NCBI RefSeq assembly: GCF_003688285.1
Contig: NZ_RCNT01000001.1
Span: 434,001 to 498,000 of the forward strand
Direction of reading: 5' to 3'
DNA length: 64,000 nucleotides
Source: Rhodophyticola porphyridii
GTDB taxonomy: Bacteria > Pseudomonadota > Alphaproteobacteria > Rhodobacterales > Rhodobacteraceae
Shown: one piece after another, positions 27,389 to 34,330 of the stretch
How the letters are laid out: every line of letters starts with the position of its first letter
How positions within the stretch are numbered: the first letter of the stretch is position 1
Program-made: the position numbers and the translations under genes
The notes under the pieces: model-generated
Told to the model about the DNA's origin: nothing
Seen by the model: the letters and a program-made list of their open reading frames with translations, nothing else
Database searches by the model: none

Positions 27389-28309
27389 ATGACCCGTTCG
27401 ATCCCCGGCCTGCACCATGTGACGGCCATTTCCGGGCCACCTCAGGCCAATGTCGATTTCTTTACCGGTGTGCTCGGCCAGCGTCTTGTCAAGAAAACCG
27501 TGAATTTCGACGATCCCGGCACCTACCATCTGTATTATGGCGACCGGACGGGCAGCCCCGGCACGATCCTGACCTTTTTTCCGTTTGCCGATGCGGGGCC
27601 GGGCCGTGCGGGGCCGGGCATGGCCTCCGCCTATGGGTATGCGGTGCCAGCTGGGCGGTTCGACCCCTGGATGGAGCGGCTGGCCGAAGCGGCCGTGGCC
27701 TTCGACGGGCCCGTGGAGCGTTTTGGCGCCAGGGTGATCACCCTTGCGGACCCCGATGGCGCGCCGGTGGAACTGATCGAGACAGACCGCGAGAGTGCGG
27801 AGGATCTGGACGGGTTTCACTCCGTCACGCTTTGGGAGCGGGATACAGAGCCGACCGCTCGGCTTCTGGTGGATGTGTTCGGCTATGAGCACGCCGGCCA
27901 TGAGACGAGGGGCGGGGTGGAACGCCTGCGACTGAAAGCACCGGGAGATGCGCGCGGCGGCGTGGTCGACCTGATCCGGTCCGATGCACCTTCCATCGGG
28001 CGGCAGGGTGCCGGAAGCATCCATCACGTGGCGTTCCGCGCCGAAAACGACGCGGTGCAGCAGGCGTGGCGCGAAACGCTGACAAGTGCCGGGTTCGGGC
28101 CGACGCCGGTGATCGACCGGCAGTATTTCAACGCGATCTATTTCCGGGAACCGGGTGGGGTTCTGTTCGAGATCGCGACCGATCCGCCGGGCTTCGCGGT
28201 GGATGAGGACGTAGCCGATCTGGGCACCGCGCTGAAGCTGCCGGCTCAATACGAGGCGCAGCGCGACCGCATCGAACAGGTGCTGCCGCCCCTGAAGGTG
28301 ACCACATGA
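27389..28309 (+). CDS. Ring-cleaving dioxygenase, VOC type (MhqO-like)
   Basis: A 306-residue two-module VOC protein. IPGLHHVTAISGPPQANVDFFTGVLGQRLVKKTVNFDDPGTYHLYYGD is the signature of the putative hydroquinone ring-cleaving dioxygenases (MhqO/MhqA type). The second module has GSIHHVAFRAEND and YFNAIYFREPGGVLFEIATD, with the metal-binding His and Glu. The family detoxifies quinones and electrophiles. ATG 27389 follows CTGGAGGAG. It overlaps the esterase gene by four bases (ATGA), the conserved pairing of this family, so the two form one transcription unit. Confidence 0.92.
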   Translation: MTRSIPGLHHVTAISGPPQANVDFFTGVLGQRLVKKTVNFDDPGTYHLYYGDRTGSPGTILTFFPFADAGPGRAGPGMASAYGYAVPAGRFDPWMERLAEAAVAFDGPVERFGARVITLADPDGAPVELIETDRESAEDLDGFHSVTLWERDTEPTARLLVDVFGYEHAGHETRGGVERLRLKAPGDARGGVVDLIRSDAPSIGRQGAGSIHHVAFRAENDAVQQAWRETLTSAGFGPTPVIDRQYFNAIYFREPGGVLFEIATDPPGFAVDEDVADLGTALKLPAQYEAQRDRIEQVLPPLKVTT

Positions 28310-28965
28310 GCGACCGGGGCCTGCTGTCGTTTGGCGGGGCCAGCCCGGGCCGGGCGGCCCGTGGCCTCGTCCTGGCGCATGGGCGCGGCGGCTCCGCGGC
28401 CGACATTCTGGAGCTGGGCGCGGCGCTTGGTCTGCCCGATGTCGCGCTGGCGGCGCCCGATGCCAGGGGACAGAGCTGGTGGCCCACGTCGTTTCTGGCG
28501 CCGCATACGCAGATGGCCCCCTATCTGGAGGCCGGATTGCATGCGCTGGACCGGGCGGTGGAGGCGCTGGTAGAGGGCGGCCTGGAGCGGGACCGCATCG
28601 CGGTCGCGGGCTTCAGCCAGGGGGCTTGTCTGGCGCTGGAATACGGGGCGCGCAGCGCCGGTCTGGGGGCGGTCATCGGCCTGTCCGGCGGGCTGGTGGG
28701 CACGGGCGATGCCGGTGGTGGCGCGGTAAATGCGCTATACGGGTATGCGCCCAAGCTTTTCGACTATGACAACCGGCTGGAGGGCACCCCCGTCGTGATC
28801 GCGGTCCATGCGCGCGACCCGCATATCCCGCTGGCACGCGCCGAAGAAAGCGCCGGGGTGTTCCGGGCCATGGGTGCGGAGGTGGAGCTTCTGGTCACGC
28901 CCGGCGAGGGGCACGGGATAACCGGCGACGGTCTGGCGGCCATGCGCCGCTTGCTGAACCGCTAA
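28306..28965 (+). CDS. Phospholipase/carboxylesterase-type alpha/beta hydrolase (MhqD-like)
   Basis: A 219-residue alpha/beta-hydrolase. The nucleophile elbow is GFSQGACLAL (Ser ~105), the acid loop is ARDPHIPLARAEES, and the catalytic His lies in TPGEGHGITGD (~201). GRGGSAADILELGAALG is the conserved N-terminal oxyanion segment. Together with the overlapping VOC dioxygenase it resembles the MhqO/MhqD quinone-stress pair. The exact ester substrate is unknown. Confidence 0.9.
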   Translation: MSDRGLLSFGGASPGRAARGLVLAHGRGGSAADILELGAALGLPDVALAAPDARGQSWWPTSFLAPHTQMAPYLEAGLHALDRAVEALVEGGLERDRIAVAGFSQGACLALEYGARSAGLGAVIGLSGGLVGTGDAGGGAVNALYGYAPKLFDYDNRLEGTPVVIAVHARDPHIPLARAEESAGVFRAMGAEVELLVTPGEGHGITGDGLAAMRRLLNR

Positions 28966-28988: not shown

Positions 28989-30536
28989 TCAGCGGAACCA
29001 GTGGTTCCATCCGGCATGGTAGAGCGGCACCAGCGGATGACCCTGAATGGAGTTGACCTCCGCCTGCAGGCGTGCGGTGTCGAGGCCGAAGACCCGGGCG
29101 GACTGCCAGACCCCGGGCGTGAGGAAACGCAGATTTGCGGGCAGGAACGGCGCGCGATCGGTCAGGCCCATGGGACCGGCGATGACGAAGCCCCAATCGC
29201 CGAAGCTGGGCACATAGACGTGATAGGGCAGCGTGGCGAGCCCCGCACCGGGAGCTTGCGGGTTGCGGGTGGCCGCCAGCGTCGCCTCGATCGTCCAGAA
29301 GGCTTGCCGCGCAAATGTGGGCGAGCCGGCCTGCGTCACGAAAAGCCCCCGCGCGGAGAGGCGCTCCACCAGCATGGCGTAAAACTCGATCGAGTAAAGC
29401 TTTGATACTGCGATTGTTTTCGGATCCGGCAGGTCGGCGATGACCACATCGTATATGGCGGTGTCCTCGGCGACGAAGGCCCAGGCATCGGCGTTGATGA
29501 CGGTCACGCGCGGATCGTTGAACGCGTTGCCGTTGAGCGGGATCAGGGCCGGATTTGTCGCGAACAGATCCGTCACCCGCGGGTCCAGATCCACCAGCGT
29601 CACGGTCTCCACATCGTCATGGCGCAGCACCTCGCGAAGCGCCATGCCGTCGCCACCGCCGAGGATCAGCACATCGGACCGCCGCGGGGCGAGGCCCATG
29701 GCCGGATGGACCAGCGCTTCGTGGTAGCGGTGTTCGTCAAGCGTGTCGAACTGGATCGACTGGTCGAGAAAGAGCCGGATCCGCTCGTCGAAGCGGGTGA
29801 TGGTGATGGCCTGATACGGGGTCTGTTCGGAGAGGATGACCTCGTCTTCGAAGAGCCGCGCATCGATTGCGGAGACGAGCCGGTCGCTGGAGACGAGGCC
29901 GATAAGGGCGAGCCCCAGAAACCCGGCCCAGGGCAGCCAGAGGCCGCTGCCCAGCCGGTCGCGGAAAAGCCAAAGGGAAAACCCCGCCACCAACAGGTTC
30001 AGCACGCCGAAGGCGAGGCTGGCCGCGATCAGGGAAAGGTTGGGGATGATCAGAAGCGGAAATGCGAGGCTGGCGGCAAGCGCGCCGATATAATCCGCGG
30101 TCAGCACGTTTTCGAAGCGGAACTCGGCGGCCCCGATCTGTTTCAGCACTCGGGTGATCAAGGGGATTTCCATCCCCGACAGCACGCCGATGATGATCAG
30201 CAGCCCGTAAAGCGGCAAGCCGACGCTGCCCGACCAGGCATAGGCGAAGAACAGGATCGGCCCGGAGGCGCCGCCGAAGACGCCCAGGGCGATCTGCGCC
30301 CGCACGAACCCGCCAAGGGCATCGCCGACAAAGCGCGACAAATAGGCCCCCAGGCCCATCGCGGACAGGAATACGCCGATCACGAAGGAAAACTGCCGGA
30401 TCGAATCCCCGATCAGATAGCTGGAGATCGTGGCCGCGATCAGCTCGTAGATCAGGCCCGCGACGGCAACCACGAAGGTGGCCGCCAGAAGCCAGGCGAC
30501 CTTGGGCGTGACCTCGGACGGTGAGGAGGCGGTCAA
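28989..30536 (-). CDS. Membrane-anchored spermidine-synthase-like aminopropyltransferase
   Basis: A 515-residue protein. The N-terminal ~210 residues are hydrophobic with about seven transmembrane segments (WLLAATFVVAVAGLIYELIA; FSFVIGVFLSAMGLGAYL; LYGLLIIIGVLSGMEIPLI). The C-terminal half is an SpeE-type Rossmann domain with VLILGGGDGMALREVLRH (GGGDG ~290), TLVDLDPRVTDLF and VIADLPDPKT, the catalytic-aspartate region. It should transfer an aminopropyl or related group from decarboxylated SAM to an unknown acceptor. The frame has no ATG near its start, so TTG 30536-30534, overlapping the DUF350 stop, is chosen. Last gene of the DUF4178-DUF350 operon. Confidence 0.88.
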   Translation of the reverse strand: MTASSPSEVTPKVAWLLAATFVVAVAGLIYELIAATISSYLIGDSIRQFSFVIGVFLSAMGLGAYLSRFVGDALGGFVRAQIALGVFGGASGPILFFAYAWSGSVGLPLYGLLIIIGVLSGMEIPLITRVLKQIGAAEFRFENVLTADYIGALAASLAFPLLIIPNLSLIAASLAFGVLNLLVAGFSLWLFRDRLGSGLWLPWAGFLGLALIGLVSSDRLVSAIDARLFEDEVILSEQTPYQAITITRFDERIRLFLDQSIQFDTLDEHRYHEALVHPAMGLAPRRSDVLILGGGDGMALREVLRHDDVETVTLVDLDPRVTDLFATNPALIPLNGNAFNDPRVTVINADAWAFVAEDTAIYDVVIADLPDPKTIAVSKLYSIEFYAMLVERLSARGLFVTQAGSPTFARQAFWTIEATLAATRNPQAPGAGLATLPYHVYVPSFGDWGFVIAGPMGLTDRAPFLPANLRFLTPGVWQSARVFGLDTARLQAEVNSIQGHPLVPLYHAGWNHWFR

Positions 30537-30757
30537 GACAGGATGACGGCGGCGATGATGATCGAGATCGAGATGAAGACCGCGCTGATCAGCACGGCCA
30601 GGGCGGTGTTCTGATCCTCTTCGATCTCCTTGACGATCGAGAAGGGGGTCATCAGATCGAGCACTTTCCACGCGATCCACAACAGGACCAGCCCGATGCC
30701 GGTGTAAAACAGCGTGGAGACGAATTCGGCCAGAACGATCAGCTCAAACGGGTTCAT
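30533..30757 (-). CDS. DUF350 membrane protein
   Basis: A 74-residue inner-membrane protein with two hydrophobic stretches, FVSTLFYTGIGLVLLWIAWKVLDLM and ALAVLISAVFISISIIIAAVIL, joined by a charged loop SIVKEIEEDQNT. This is the DUF350 half-unit pattern (YjfL-like). Longer frames start upstream, but ATG 30757 has GGAGC just before it and matches the family start. Its stop overlaps the TTG of the aminopropyltransferase, implying tight coupling. DUF350 is known from comparative genomics to travel with polyamine-type enzymes. Confidence 0.9.
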   Translation of the reverse strand: MNPFELIVLAEFVSTLFYTGIGLVLLWIAWKVLDLMTPFSIVKEIEEDQNTALAVLISAVFISISIIIAAVILS

Positions 30758-30776
30758 GGGGCGGGCTCCTTTTGGG

Positions 30777-30947
30777 TCATTTGATACGGCCGAGCGAATT
30801 GTAGCCACCGCCCGGGCTGCCAGCGCGGATCGAGGCTGCGGTGGCGATATCCCGGCTTTCGCGGCCGATGCCGTAGTAGGACAGATAGCCCGCGCCCAGA
30901 AGGGCGAGGCTACAGCCGACCAGTATGACGACGCGAAACGGGGTCAT
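30777..30947 (-). CDS. Unannotated 56-residue membrane peptide in the DUF4178-DUF350 operon
   Basis: A 57-codon frame from ATG 30947 to TGA 30779-30777. The product starts MTPFRVVILVGCSLALLGAGY, one transmembrane segment with a cysteine that could be a lipobox (VGCS), then a short glycine/serine-rich tail ending GGGYNSLGRIK. GGCCCGCC precedes the ATG. It fills the exact gap between DUF4178 (stop 30960) and DUF350, so it is probably a genuine operon member. No family is recognised. Confidence 0.65.
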   Translation of the reverse strand: MTPFRVVILVGCSLALLGAGYLSYYGIGRESRDIATAASIRAGSPGGGYNSLGRIK

Positions 30948-30959
30948 GGGCGGGCCTTT

Positions 30960-32255
30960 CTAATCTTCATCGGTCCAGTCCGAGCCGGACCAGCGTCGTT
31001 TTTCGTACAATGCGTAGCGGCCTTGCAGCGCGAGGGCGCCCAGAAGGAACAGGACCGTCATGGCCCCCATCCAGAGAGAGGTCGTCACCTTCTGTCGCAC
31101 CGATATGGTGACATAGGAGAGCGGGCTATGGTTGCCCTGCCAGCTTTCCGCCTCCTCCAGATCCAGCGTGATCCGATGCACACCGGTGTCCGTGGGCCGG
31201 AAGAGATAGTGTGCGCGGCGCGAGCCTTCGGACCATCGCTCCCCACCGTCGGTGCCGGAGTAATACTGCGCCGCGCGCAGGCCCTCGACCACGGGCTCGC
31301 CCGCTGCATTCAGGATCTCGGTCGAGAACAGCGCATAGGCGTTGCTGACATCGGTTTGCAGATCCACGCGAACCAGCTGATCCGCCGAGGTGAGCGTGAA
31401 GTCGTAGGTTTGCGGCAGATCGCGGACCGGCACCCGGTCGACGTTCAGCACCCTGTCGCCGGGCAGGATCCAAAGGGCCAGGGTCAGCAAAAGCGCGACG
31501 GCGGCAAACCCAAGCAGCGCGAGGCGCAGGAAGCCTTCGTCCTTCAACGGTTTGAAAGGGGTCAGAGGATGCGGTTCCGTCACGCGGATTGTGGCCGGAT
31601 CGATGCCAAGTTGGGCGCAGATCCGTTCGGTCGGGATCAGGATCGAGCGTTCGACCTCGCGTTCGTTCCGGCTGAAGGAATAGCTCAGCATCGCCTCTCT
31701 GGACATCAGCGTGACGGCGGTCTTGCTCTCCCCCAGCTCGGGGAGCCAGTTGAACTCCCCTTCCATGAAATCGATGCGCGCCGTGCTGGTCTCGTAATAG
31801 CGGTAATGACCGTCGTTCAGCCTGGCGCGGGGCGGGCTTTCGGCGCGTTCCACCTGCGCGGCGCCTATCCACATGGGCGAGGGCAGGTCGCGCAGCTTGC
31901 GCGTGAAGACAAAGGCGCCGCTTTCATAGCTCAGCCATGCATAGCCATGGGTGGGCGAAAAAAGCTGATGCTCGGTCCAGCGCCAGGTTTCGCCGCGATA
32001 GGTCTCGATCATCCCGAGCGTGCCGATGACGGTGAAATCCGCGCCTTCGATGGTGGCCGTCATGCCGATATTCACCGGGCTGAACGGGTGGTCCCGTTTT
32101 CCGATGGAGGTCAGGATCCTGTACTTGTCCTGCGCGTCGAGAACCGCGCCGCAATAGCCGCAGACATGGGTCCGCACGCGGCCCCCGCCCAGCACGCCGA
32201 GGCCCGCGCCGCATTGCGTGCAATTGATCGAGGATAGATCGGCGGCGCGGGTCAT
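30960..32255 (-). CDS. DUF4178 protein with zinc ribbon and two membrane spans
   Basis: A 431-residue protein. An N-terminal zinc ribbon (CTQCGAGLG...CGYCGAVLD, residues ~11-36) leads into a DUF4178 beta domain (RDHPFSPVNIGMTATIEGADFTVIGTLGMIE...WRWTEHQLFSPTHGYAWLSYESG). It then has one membrane helix (ALLGFAAVALLLTLALWIL), a ~130-residue probable periplasmic domain, and a second helix (LWMGAMTVLFLLGALALQG). The first four bases overlap the upstream DUF4178 gene. Function is unknown; the architecture suggests a membrane adaptor. Confidence 0.85.
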   Translation of the reverse strand: MTRAADLSSINCTQCGAGLGVLGGGRVRTHVCGYCGAVLDAQDKYRILTSIGKRDHPFSPVNIGMTATIEGADFTVIGTLGMIETYRGETWRWTEHQLFSPTHGYAWLSYESGAFVFTRKLRDLPSPMWIGAAQVERAESPPRARLNDGHYRYYETSTARIDFMEGEFNWLPELGESKTAVTLMSREAMLSYSFSRNEREVERSILIPTERICAQLGIDPATIRVTEPHPLTPFKPLKDEGFLRLALLGFAAVALLLTLALWILPGDRVLNVDRVPVRDLPQTYDFTLTSADQLVRVDLQTDVSNAYALFSTEILNAAGEPVVEGLRAAQYYSGTDGGERWSEGSRRAHYLFRPTDTGVHRITLDLEEAESWQGNHSPLSYVTISVRQKVTTSLWMGAMTVLFLLGALALQGRYALYEKRRWSGSDWTDED

Positions 32256-32875
32256 GTCGCGCGGTCCGGTTTCAGATCGAACGGGTCGAGCCAGCGACCC
32301 CTGTACCATGCGCGGACACCGGCCCAGAACTCGCCGGAGATAAGCGCGCCGTCGTCGCCGGTGGCGTTCACGAAATTGTGCCGCTCTCCGATTTCCATGA
32401 CTTCGGGGAACTCCCCGCGAATGGCAACGCAGGCGGCGGAGTCGGCCTCCGTCACGGTGTAGGTGTTGCCCTCCACCCGGAAGCTGGCGCCAAGCGGGGG
32501 CGCCTCGTTCCATTTCGGAGCCTGTCCCTCCGGCAGCGCGGTCTGGAGGATCACGTCCCCCTCATCTATGCTGATCCATGCGCCATTGCCGCTGCCGTCG
32601 AGGGCCCAAAGCTCATCCCACCAGCCGCGCCCGTAATCGAACCGGGCATGGCCCACCATCCGGTAGACATGCCGCCCGACGCGCAGCTTGTCTCCAAGGG
32701 CGAGCAGCATCGGGACCTCATGCATTTCGCCATGGTTGCCGATCGGGGCCAGCGCATCGGCCTGCCGGAACAGTGTGGTGCCGCAGGAGGGGCAATCGAA
32801 CATCCGCGTCGATTTTTGCAGGCGGGCGAAGCTATTGCCGCAGTTCGGGCAGGAAAGATGGCCTTTGGGCGTCAT
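32252..32875 (-). CDS. DUF4178 zinc-ribbon protein, soluble
   Basis: A 207-residue protein with two CxxC pairs at the N-terminus (CPNCGNSF, CPSCGTTLF) forming a zinc ribbon, then two DUF4178-like beta units (MLLALGDKLRVGRHVYRMVGHARFDYGRGWWDELWAL and PLGASFRVEGNTYTVTEAD). There is no membrane segment. It is the first gene of the tight five-gene set that ends in the aminopropyltransferase. An aminotransferase gene lies 84 bases upstream in the same direction. Confidence 0.85.
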   Translation of the reverse strand: MTPKGHLSCPNCGNSFARLQKSTRMFDCPSCGTTLFRQADALAPIGNHGEMHEVPMLLALGDKLRVGRHVYRMVGHARFDYGRGWWDELWALDGSGNGAWISIDEGDVILQTALPEGQAPKWNEAPPLGASFRVEGNTYTVTEADSAACVAIRGEFPEVMEIGERHNFVNATGDDGALISGEFWAGVRAWYRGRWLDPFDLKPDRAT

Positions 32876-32959: not shown

Positions 32960-34330
32960 CTAGCCCAGGACCTCGGCCACCGCCTCGGTCGTGGCCGTTA
33001 TCACGGTATCGGCCTCCTCCCGCGTCAAGCAGAGCGGCGGGGCGAAGCCGATGATGTCGCCCTGCGGCATCGCCCGCGCGATCACGCCGCGCCGGCCCAT
33101 GGCGGCCACGATCTGCGGTGTGATCTTGCGGTCGGGGTCGAAATAGGTGCGGCTGTCTCGGTCGGCGATCAGTTCCACCGCCGTCAGCATGCCTTCGCCG
33201 CGGATATCGCCCACATGGGCGTGATCGCCAAGTGCTGCCTGCATCTGCGCGGTGAGATAGGGCCCCACGGTGGCCGCATTCTCGACAAGGCCAAGGCTGT
33301 CGATGAGCTTGAGATTGGCAACGCCTGCCGCGGCGCCGATGGGATGGGCCGAATAGGTCCAGCCATGGCCGATGGGCCCGTTTTCGTCCGTGCCCTGTTC
33401 CAGCACCTTCCAGACCTTTTCCGATACGATCGAGCCCGACAGCGGCGCATAGGCGGAGGTCAGCCCCTTGGCGATGGTCATGATATCGGGGGTCAGCCCA
33501 TAGGCGGGGCTGGCGAACATATGGCCCAGACGGCCAAACCCGGTGATCACCTCGTCCGCGATAAGCAGAATATCGTGCTTTTCCAGGATAGGCGTGATCG
33601 CCTCCCAATAACCTTCGGGCGGGGGGACGATGCCGCCGGTGCCAAGCATGGGTTCGGCGATGAAAGCAGCGATGGTGTCCGCGCCCTCGGTGTCGATCAG
33701 CTGTTCCAGATCGGCGGCGCATTGCGCGGAAAACAGGGGCTCCGACATCTCCCGGGTGTCGCGACGATAATAATAGGGGCTGGTGGTGTGCCGCACCATG
33801 TCGAGCGGCAGATCGAATTTCCTGTGGAACAGATTCAGCCCGGTGAGCGAGCCGCTCATCAGCCCTGAGCCGTGATAGGCGCGCCAGCGGCTGATGATCT
33901 TCTTCTTTCGGGGCAGCCCGCGGATGTTGTTGTAGTACCAGACCAGTTTTACGTTGGTTTCATTCGCGTCGGACCCGCCCTGACCGAAATAGACCTTGGA
34001 CATGTGATCGGGCGCGCGGTCCATCACCATCTTGGAAAGGGTCACCGATGCTTCGGTGCCGTGGCCCATATAGGCGTGATAATAGGCCAGCTCACGCGCC
34101 TGTTCGGCAATCGCATCGGCGATTTCGGTGCGGCCATACCCCACGTTCACGCAATACAGTCCGGCAAAGGCATCGAGCAGGCGGCTGCCGTCGCGGTCGG
34201 TGATGTAGCAGCCTTCGCCGCCGATTATGATCCGGCCCTGCACCTCGCCGCGCGCATGTTGCGCCAGATGGGTGGAGGGGTGGAGGAAACTGTCGCGGTC
34301 CCATTGGGACAGTTGATCATTGGTCAGCAT
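32960..34330 (-). CDS. Class III PLP aminotransferase (putrescine/polyamine- or omega-amino-type)
   Basis: A 456-residue fold-type I aminotransferase. Glycine-rich and PLP-contact motifs are GQGGSDANETNVKLVWYY, IADEVITGFGRLG and the lysine site TIAKGLTSAY. It is in the subgroup that includes SpuC-like putrescine-pyruvate and taurine/beta-alanine-type enzymes; the exact amine is not readable. The C-terminus (FAPPLCLTREEADTVI) is complete. Its position before the DUF4178-DUF350-aminopropyltransferase set makes a polyamine-related substrate attractive, but co-transcription across the 84-base gap is unproven. Confidence 0.92.
   Translation of the reverse strand: MLTNDQLSQWDRDSFLHPSTHLAQHARGEVQGRIIIGGEGCYITDRDGSRLLDAFAGLYCVNVGYGRTEIADAIAEQARELAYYHAYMGHGTEASVTLSKMVMDRAPDHMSKVYFGQGGSDANETNVKLVWYYNNIRGLPRKKKIISRWRAYHGSGLMSGSLTGLNLFHRKFDLPLDMVRHTTSPYYYRRDTREMSEPLFSAQCAADLEQLIDTEGADTIAAFIAEPMLGTGGIVPPPEGYWEAITPILEKHDILLIADEVITGFGRLGHMFASPAYGLTPDIMTIAKGLTSAYAPLSGSIVSEKVWKVLEQGTDENGPIGHGWTYSAHPIGAAAGVANLKLIDSLGLVENAATVGPYLTAQMQAALGDHAHVGDIRGEGMLTAVELIADRDSRTYFDPDRKITPQIVAAMGRRGVIARAMPQGDIIGFAPPLCLTREEADTVITATTEAVAEVLG

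Follow-up and report, generated by a model that had tools for sequence, protein, structure and literature searches.

Which molecule accepts the aminopropyl group transferred by a membrane-bound aminopropyltransferase? This question is raised by a five-gene operon of Rhodophyticola porphyridii (Rhodobacteraceae), which lies on the minus strand at 28989-32875 of the window, i.e. the whole stretch of 64,000 nucleotides analysed here (assembly GCF_003688285.1, contig NZ_RCNT01000001.1, positions 434,001 to 498,000). The operon encodes, in this order, two DUF4178 proteins (DUF4178a and DUF4178b), a peptide of 56 amino acids (aa), a DUF350 protein and the aminopropyltransferase. An earlier note on this DNA had described five co-directional, tightly packed genes with two overlaps of the ATGA/TTGA type, and genes and overlaps were found as it had stated (ATGA at 32252-32255, TTGA at 30533-30536), the remaining two gaps being of 12 and 19 bases. 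It had also suggested a membrane-linked system that transfers aminopropyl groups to an envelope molecule, a view supported by the co-conservation of the genes and by the intact donor-site motifs. From comparisons at the sequence level, we consider it rather probable that the operon is a dedicated protein-aminopropylation module, whose enzyme would aminopropylate the C-terminal lysine of the envelope peptide.

The C-terminal lysine of the 56-aa peptide

The peptide (30777..30947, minus strand) is composed of a single helix and a Gly/Ser/Arg tail ending in Lys, and no match was found for it in a family search of Pfam and NCBIfam. The AAA codon of its C-terminal lysine, the residue proposed to be modified, is located at 30780..30782, likewise on the minus strand. 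The peptide was lysine-ended in each of the six loci compared first (the window and relatives). A blind test was then applied to 89 loci, i.e. the window and 88 others (the best 80 of at least 585 relatives in named genomes, plus eight further loci). The profile was built from peptides deprived of their last four residues, the open reading frames (ORFs) searched were stripped likewise, the search was iterated and the ends were inspected afterwards. The peptide was retrieved in 67 of the 89 loci, window included, and its last residue was lysine in 67/67; two of these hits (L015 and L065) had an E-value above 0.001. By comparison, lysine ended 9 of 375 other genes of the same operons, a count that includes the DUF4178 proteins with fused tails of L090 and L093, and 54 of 948 long ORFs outside the operons. 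The peptides found in this way are highly divergent (median pairwise identity 23%, 64 distinct ends) and span Alpha-, Beta- and Gammaproteobacteria, Campylobacterota, Acidobacteria, Bacteroidetes, Gemmatimonadetes, Elusimicrobia, a deposit named Anaerolineae and others. Because the lysine end holds in all blind hits and in so few other operon genes, the peptide is the best acceptor candidate, and the sequences suggest its C-terminal lysine as the leading one. The earlier note had left the acceptor open and had treated the peptide as a bystander, whereas the lysine rule points to the peptide itself. As a separate observation, the residue at position -2 is always G, V, H or I (V/I in 30/67, G/H in 37/67), V/I being associated, by eye, with Rhodobacteraceae loci devoid of an oxidoreductase gene.

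Looser selection rules were also considered. Taking the most hydrophobic ORF in the gap that would hold the peptide gave a lysine end in 45 of 53 cases, and taking the longest ORF in 57 of 73. Among the 16 misses of the latter rule, 14 had a lysine-ended ORF in another frame; of the remaining two, L055 also had a lysine-ended ORF and L093 carried the tail on its DUF4178 protein. The longest antisense ORFs of the same gaps were lysine-ended in 2/61. For the 22 loci without a blind hit, inspection revealed a lysine-ended partner in 15 (L016, L017, L018, L019, L055, L058, L064, L073, L077, L082, L087, L090, L091, L093 and L094). The survey was extended to 26 further loci (L161-L186), in 22 of which a lysine-ended partner was identified by inspection or by the profile; the resulting 115 loci are not all independent, as L023 and L176 apparently belong to the same genome.

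The lysine end is not restricted to small peptides. In seven loci without a separate gap peptide (L090, L093, L170, L172, L173, L174 and L175), a DUF4178 protein carries a hydrophobic stretch and a tail ending in GGGHK, GGSHK or GGAHK. Lysine-ended partners were further read by eye, not blind, in 17 loci with PspA-type or near operons; membrane proteins of 76-100 aa were seen in ten loci (L017, L018, L087, L161, L162 and L164-L168) and lipoprotein-like proteins of 298-367 aa in seven (L019, L179, L180, L181, L183, L185 and L186), again by eye. Finally, L178 has a lysine-ended ORF of 576 aa upstream of DUF350.

Enzyme, donor supply and gene set

The aminopropyltransferase (28989..30536, minus strand, TTG start, 515 aa) matches PF01564 (E 1.4e-35) and scores 620 bits against NF002956, the NCBIfam model 'polyamine aminopropyltransferase', above its curated cut-off of 472. 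Its AlphaFold model (mean pLDDT 93, pTM 0.65) displays seven long helices and, C-terminal to them, an aminopropyltransferase domain, in agreement with the seven-helix, spermidine-synthase-like enzyme of the earlier note. Among solved structures, this domain is best matched by the Thermus aminopropyltransferase 1uir and the thermospermine synthase 6bq2. Fold and donor/catalytic residues are common to canonical SpeE, thermospermine synthase and the window enzyme, which differs from the other two by the seven membrane helices in front and by a C-terminal part without counterpart. Residues were compared between 57 membrane enzymes and 9 SpeE. Common to both sets are, among others, Q242, Q262, D267, Y271, H272, E273, D318, D350, D368, D371 and P372, which correspond to known donor and catalytic positions of solved spermidine synthases. 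The donor-site and catalytic motifs GGGDG, DxPDP and YHE were likewise found in 57/57 membrane enzymes (one glycine in 56/57) and in the 9 SpeE; in the site described by the earlier note as an intact GGGDG and DLPDP, it is the first residues of GGGDG and the D-P-D-P that are conserved to this extent. This retention of donor-site residues as in SpeE argues for decarboxylated S-adenosylmethionine (SAM) as donor. The acceptor side is different: R270 is an arginine in 57/57 membrane enzymes and I or V in 9/9 SpeE, S405, P370, F445 and G446 are invariant in the former and different in the latter, and so are, nearly invariantly, W414 (56/57), D486 (55/57) and H439 (54/57). As a guess, R270 might meet the free carboxylate of the terminal lysine.

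Decarboxylated SAM would be supplied by SpeD. The window's genome has one SpeD, on another contig and not beside or near the enzyme as in a canonical SpeE-SpeD pair, and the window enzyme is its sole PF01564 protein, which leaves SpeD without another recognised partner of the aminopropyltransferase kind in this genome. As the earlier note had stated, the operon contains no SpeD; its picture was incomplete, however, SpeD being present but unlinked. The conserved donor site and the pairing with SpeD speak against its other option, namely that a different group is used. This pairing was seen among 61 genomes of the family, 13 of which have SpeD, including all 4/4 operon carriers (p 1e-3). Canonical SpeE lies beside or within ~2 kb of SpeD in nine of the family genomes, among them one operon carrier (G025); in the 52 genomes without canonical SpeE, SpeD is present in 3/3 carriers and 1/49 others (p 2e-4). 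The linked SpeD that had been suggested as a check was found on either strand within 6.5 kb of the enzyme in 41 of the 88 loci, though not in the window. In L025, L029, L032, L034, L035 and L039, all Rhodobacteraceae, it is convergent, just downstream of the enzyme, and has an ESH motif.

Regarding polyamine supply, the window's genome encodes a homospermidine synthase (E 9e-205 against one of solved structure), and the ordinary triamine therefore has another source. A lysine/ornithine-decarboxylase-like protein is also encoded, and a search of this genome for NspC gave nothing above the cut-off. A second protein of the saccharopine-dehydrogenase family (L191) was noted in the same genome.

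Neighbouring genes were counted in the 88 loci with our own profiles, within the same 6.5 kb. DUF4178 was found in 75 loci and DUF350 in 74, whereas 36 loci had a flavin oxidoreductase and four had PspA; DUF350, the peptide retrieved blind and either two DUF4178 or fused ones occurred together in 58/88, which bears out the gene-set conservation that the earlier note had proposed to look for. The widest layout is SpeD, DUF4178a, DUF4178b, peptide, DUF350, enzyme and oxidoreductase, most Rhodobacteraceae loci having no oxidoreductase and no SpeD inside the operon. In 249 genomes of the phylum, where the figures give co-occurrence within a genome and not always adjacency, DUF4178 was present in 18 and the enzyme in 30, all 18 DUF4178 genomes carrying the enzyme (p 8e-20); DUF350 was present in 68, including 27 of the 30 enzyme genomes (p 1e-14). 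The distribution is patchy, with the enzyme in 6/289 genomes of the class (E 1e-30) and DUF4178b in 4/61 of the family, the window's genome counted in both cases. The enzyme also occurs, at 63% identity, in Tritonibacter mobilis, a marine member of the Roseobacter group.

The other operon proteins fit the description of a zinc-ribbon DUF4178 pair and a DUF350 protein. DUF4178a (32252..32875, minus strand, 207 aa) combines a zinc-ribbon and a DUF4178 domain (PF13785, E 2.6e-18) and is predicted to be cytosolic. DUF4178b (30960..32255, minus strand, 431 aa; same family, E 3.7e-14) has a zinc-ribbon, a DUF4178 domain, a membrane helix, a beta-rich domain, a second membrane helix and an acidic C-terminus; its zinc-ribbon cysteines (C12, C15, C32 and C35) are invariant in 33/33 aligned sequences. 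Its AlphaFold model has a mean pLDDT of 92, and in a fold comparison all rows with E up to 0.001 had a TM-score below 0.2 over long alignments. Its acidic end (SDWTDED in the window, at 30960), matched by a D or E end in 52/66 DUF4178b-type proteins, may perhaps bind cations. DUF350 (30533..30757, minus strand, 74 aa; PF03994, E 2.3e-13) is of the short, two-helix form.

Outside the operon, a class III aminotransferase gene (PRK07482-type, 32960-34330, minus strand) lies 84 bases upstream on the same strand. Despite the look of a polyamine gene, it was rejected as an operon part, because only 8 of the 31 alphaproteobacterial loci searched, two of these being from the same genome (L023 and L176), have a close homologue upstream in the same orientation. 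On the plus strand, genes for a glyoxalase-family protein and an alpha/beta hydrolase (27389-28309 and 28306-28965) converge on the operon, and homologues of both occur near the enzyme in L020, L021, L033 and L036. Promoter and terminator scans were uninformative (one promoter site for 1.0 expected, seven terminator-like sites for 3.2 expected).

Topology, mechanism and alternative explanations

On which side of the membrane might the reaction take place? Loops 2-3, 4-5 and 6-7 of the enzyme contain on average 8.0 Lys+Arg and loops 1-2, 3-4 and 5-6 contain 0.6, an imbalance of the same sign in 57/57 homologues. With seven spanning helices, these charges lead to a predicted topology with the N-terminus inside and the catalytic domain outside. 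Linked flavin oxidoreductases, which adjoin the enzyme for example at L059:9704-11335 and L016:6939-8570, start with a motif of the twin-arginine translocation (Tat) type in 22/36 cases according to our own pattern, several then showing a lipobox by eye; the Pfam amine-oxidase model exceeded its cut-off in one of two oxidoreductases tested. Moreover, the lysine-tailed partner is lipoprotein-like in some loci, and those forms would be exported. Together, loop charges, Tat motifs and lipoprotein-like partners suggest chemistry outside the inner membrane.

From the gene set, the lysine rule, the conserved donor site and the SpeD pairing, all read directly from the sequences, we infer the following reaction, acceptor and roles for DUF350, DUF4178 and the oxidase. 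Decarboxylated SAM would be made by SpeD, whose gene lies in another part of the genome, and the membrane enzyme would transfer the aminopropyl group from it to the side-chain amine of the C-terminal lysine on the membrane-anchored peptide, most likely at the outer face of the inner membrane. The lysine side chain is a four-carbon primary amine, like putrescine, and a terminal lysine at the free end of a flexible tail could fit a putrescine-type pocket, and the reaction would yield an envelope peptide whose end resembles spermidine. DUF350 may serve as a partner or conduit in the membrane, and the DUF4178 proteins may be sensors or scaffolds in the cytosol. Many relatives encode an adjacent flavin oxidoreductase that often bears an export signal; it might process the added amine, resulting in its removal or in an aldehyde for cross-linking.

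Several points weigh against this proposal. No lysine-ended partner was identified in 11/115 loci (L045, L047, L053, L057, L066, L074 and L096 of the 89; L163, L171, L182 and L184 of the 26), some of which are truncated at a contig edge or are devoid of a visible DUF350 or DUF4178. In the model, helix 7 of the enzyme has only 19 residues and, if it did not span the membrane, the catalytic domain would be inside. The peptide's own charges give only a weak signal for an inside N-terminus and an outside tail, and the several Arg/Lys residues seen by eye in its tail would argue for an inside location. An outside catalytic domain would require decarboxylated SAM to cross the membrane by a hypothetical route, and the window's operon has no oxidase.

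A conserved terminal lysine could also serve recognition and not acceptance. The enzyme might act on another envelope target (a lipid or sugar amine), the lysine-tailed peptide being a regulatory or docking subunit that binds the enzyme or DUF350 through its lysine. Terminal residues can indeed act as docking signals, and Ravi et al. 2024 (PMC11237479) propose, in general terms, polyamine sensing or aminopropylation of other substrates. We nevertheless regard this explanation as unlikely, given that the lysine end persists across carriers as varied as 45-100-aa peptides, lipoprotein-like proteins of ~300-370 aa and DUF4178 proteins, and that the ligase-based sister system presented below has glycine at its tail end. 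It is also conceivable, if improbable, that the enzyme converts the SpeD product at the membrane into a free polyamine, be it spermidine, thermospermine or a similar compound. In fold and catalytic residues it agrees with polyamine aminopropyltransferases, Thermus and plant thermospermine synthases being the best match, and both its NCBIfam name and the SpeD pairing are in line with such a role; however, the homospermidine synthase is already available in the genome, the acceptor-side residues are unlike those of the 9 SpeE and the lysine rule would be left unexplained. Such fusions, studied by Li and colleagues in 2019, reportedly gave no spermidine and no complementation.

The two other explanations relate to the attached group and to its donor. 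Lysine amines are common cross-link sites, and the lysine at the free end of an envelope tail might attach something else, e.g. in a cross-link to cell wall or protein, polyamine genes supplying a different step. The amine-chemistry genes that recur are SpeD (41/88 loci), the aminopropyltransferase itself and the flavin oxidoreductase (36/88), in a survey not directed at attachment enzymes, and make us consider this a distinctly poor prospect. That the donor is SAM itself or another SAM derivative would be in line with the absence of SpeD from the window's operon, but the donor-site residues common with SpeE and the SpeD pairing leave this idea hardly credible.

Related systems and significance

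Neighbourhoods of DUF350 and DUF4178 with polyamine enzymes had, as the earlier note stated, already been noticed in comparative genomics, and the operon class has been published. In Ravi et al. 2024 (PMC11237479), this class is described with PspA-CesT/Tir, a seven-transmembrane (7TM) spermidine-synthase-like protein, DUF350, DUF4178 and the Ctha_1186 lipoprotein, with the suggestion of polyamine sensing or aminopropylation of other substrates. Both operons combine a 7TM aminopropyltransferase, DUF350, DUF4178 and an additional small or lipoprotein-like envelope protein. The window differs by its two DUF4178 proteins, one with membrane helices, by its two-helix DUF350 of 74 aa (~280 aa in the PspA-CesT/Tir operon) and by its 56-aa peptide as the partner. 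PspA and CesT/Tir are not among the window's five genes, PspA not having been searched elsewhere in the genome. The peptide has no family match and resembles the lipoprotein-like partners, Ctha_1186 included in the comparison, in position and lysine end only. The lysine end of the envelope partner of PspA-type operons was seen in the present analysis, and the word lysine is absent from the main text of Ravi et al. The operon architecture is already published, and what is new is the terminal lysine of the 56-aa peptide as acceptor candidate. No paper was found on aminopropylation with C-terminal lysine, aminopropyl-lysine or protein aminopropylation in the open-licence literature, a scope that makes this absence weak evidence.

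A second comparison is offered by Escherichia coli, in which yjfIJKLMC encodes a PspA-family protein, DUF350 (yjfL) and a DUF1190 protein beside YjfC. YjfC, as well as YgiC beside YgiB, bears the RefSeq name peptide-spermidine ligase, and the tails of YjfM and YgiB end in GG. As in the window, a polyamine-transfer enzyme stands beside DUF350 and an envelope protein with a Gly/Ser/Arg tail; the YjfC/YgiC enzyme is an ATP-grasp ligase, however, and none is found among the window's five genes. In the 249 genomes, DUF1190 gave 28 hits in 25 genomes, of which 18 end in G, 6 in S, one each in V, R, E and D and none in K, with four weak or mis-picked rows included (L117, L127, L129 and L130). For 16 hits the following ORF begins, by eye, like a YgiC-type gene; of these, 14 have G and two have S as last residue. 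The window's genome (G000) gave no DUF1190 hit, and the window's tail ends in Lys. The acceptor has to offer a carboxylate to an amide ligase but an amine to an aminopropyltransferase; we infer from this correlation that the last residue of the tail fits the enzyme chemistry in both systems.

A broader proposal follows these lines, to which we give slightly less than an even chance. C-terminal-lysine aminopropylation would be a new post-translational modification of envelope peptides and lipoproteins at the outer face, decarboxylated SAM arriving via the membrane domain of the enzyme or DUF350; in many lineages an exported flavin amine oxidase would then act, and the system would form one super-family with the YjfC/YgiC ligases, the tail end (Lys or Gly) matching the chemistry.

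Membrane fusions resembling spermidine synthase and linked to SpeD and DUF350 are said to have been proposed by Li and colleagues in 2019 to aminopropylate something other than putrescine, the acceptor reportedly not being named, and many bacteria reportedly have SpeD and a membrane 'spermidine synthase' yet no spermidine. The target of the enzyme had been open, and the terminal lysine, kept while little else in the peptide is, names a candidate acceptor. This rule strongly hints at envelope peptides as the molecules that these enzymes modify. If true, this would represent a new protein modification and would provide a reason for polyamine enzymes adjoining envelope-stress genes.

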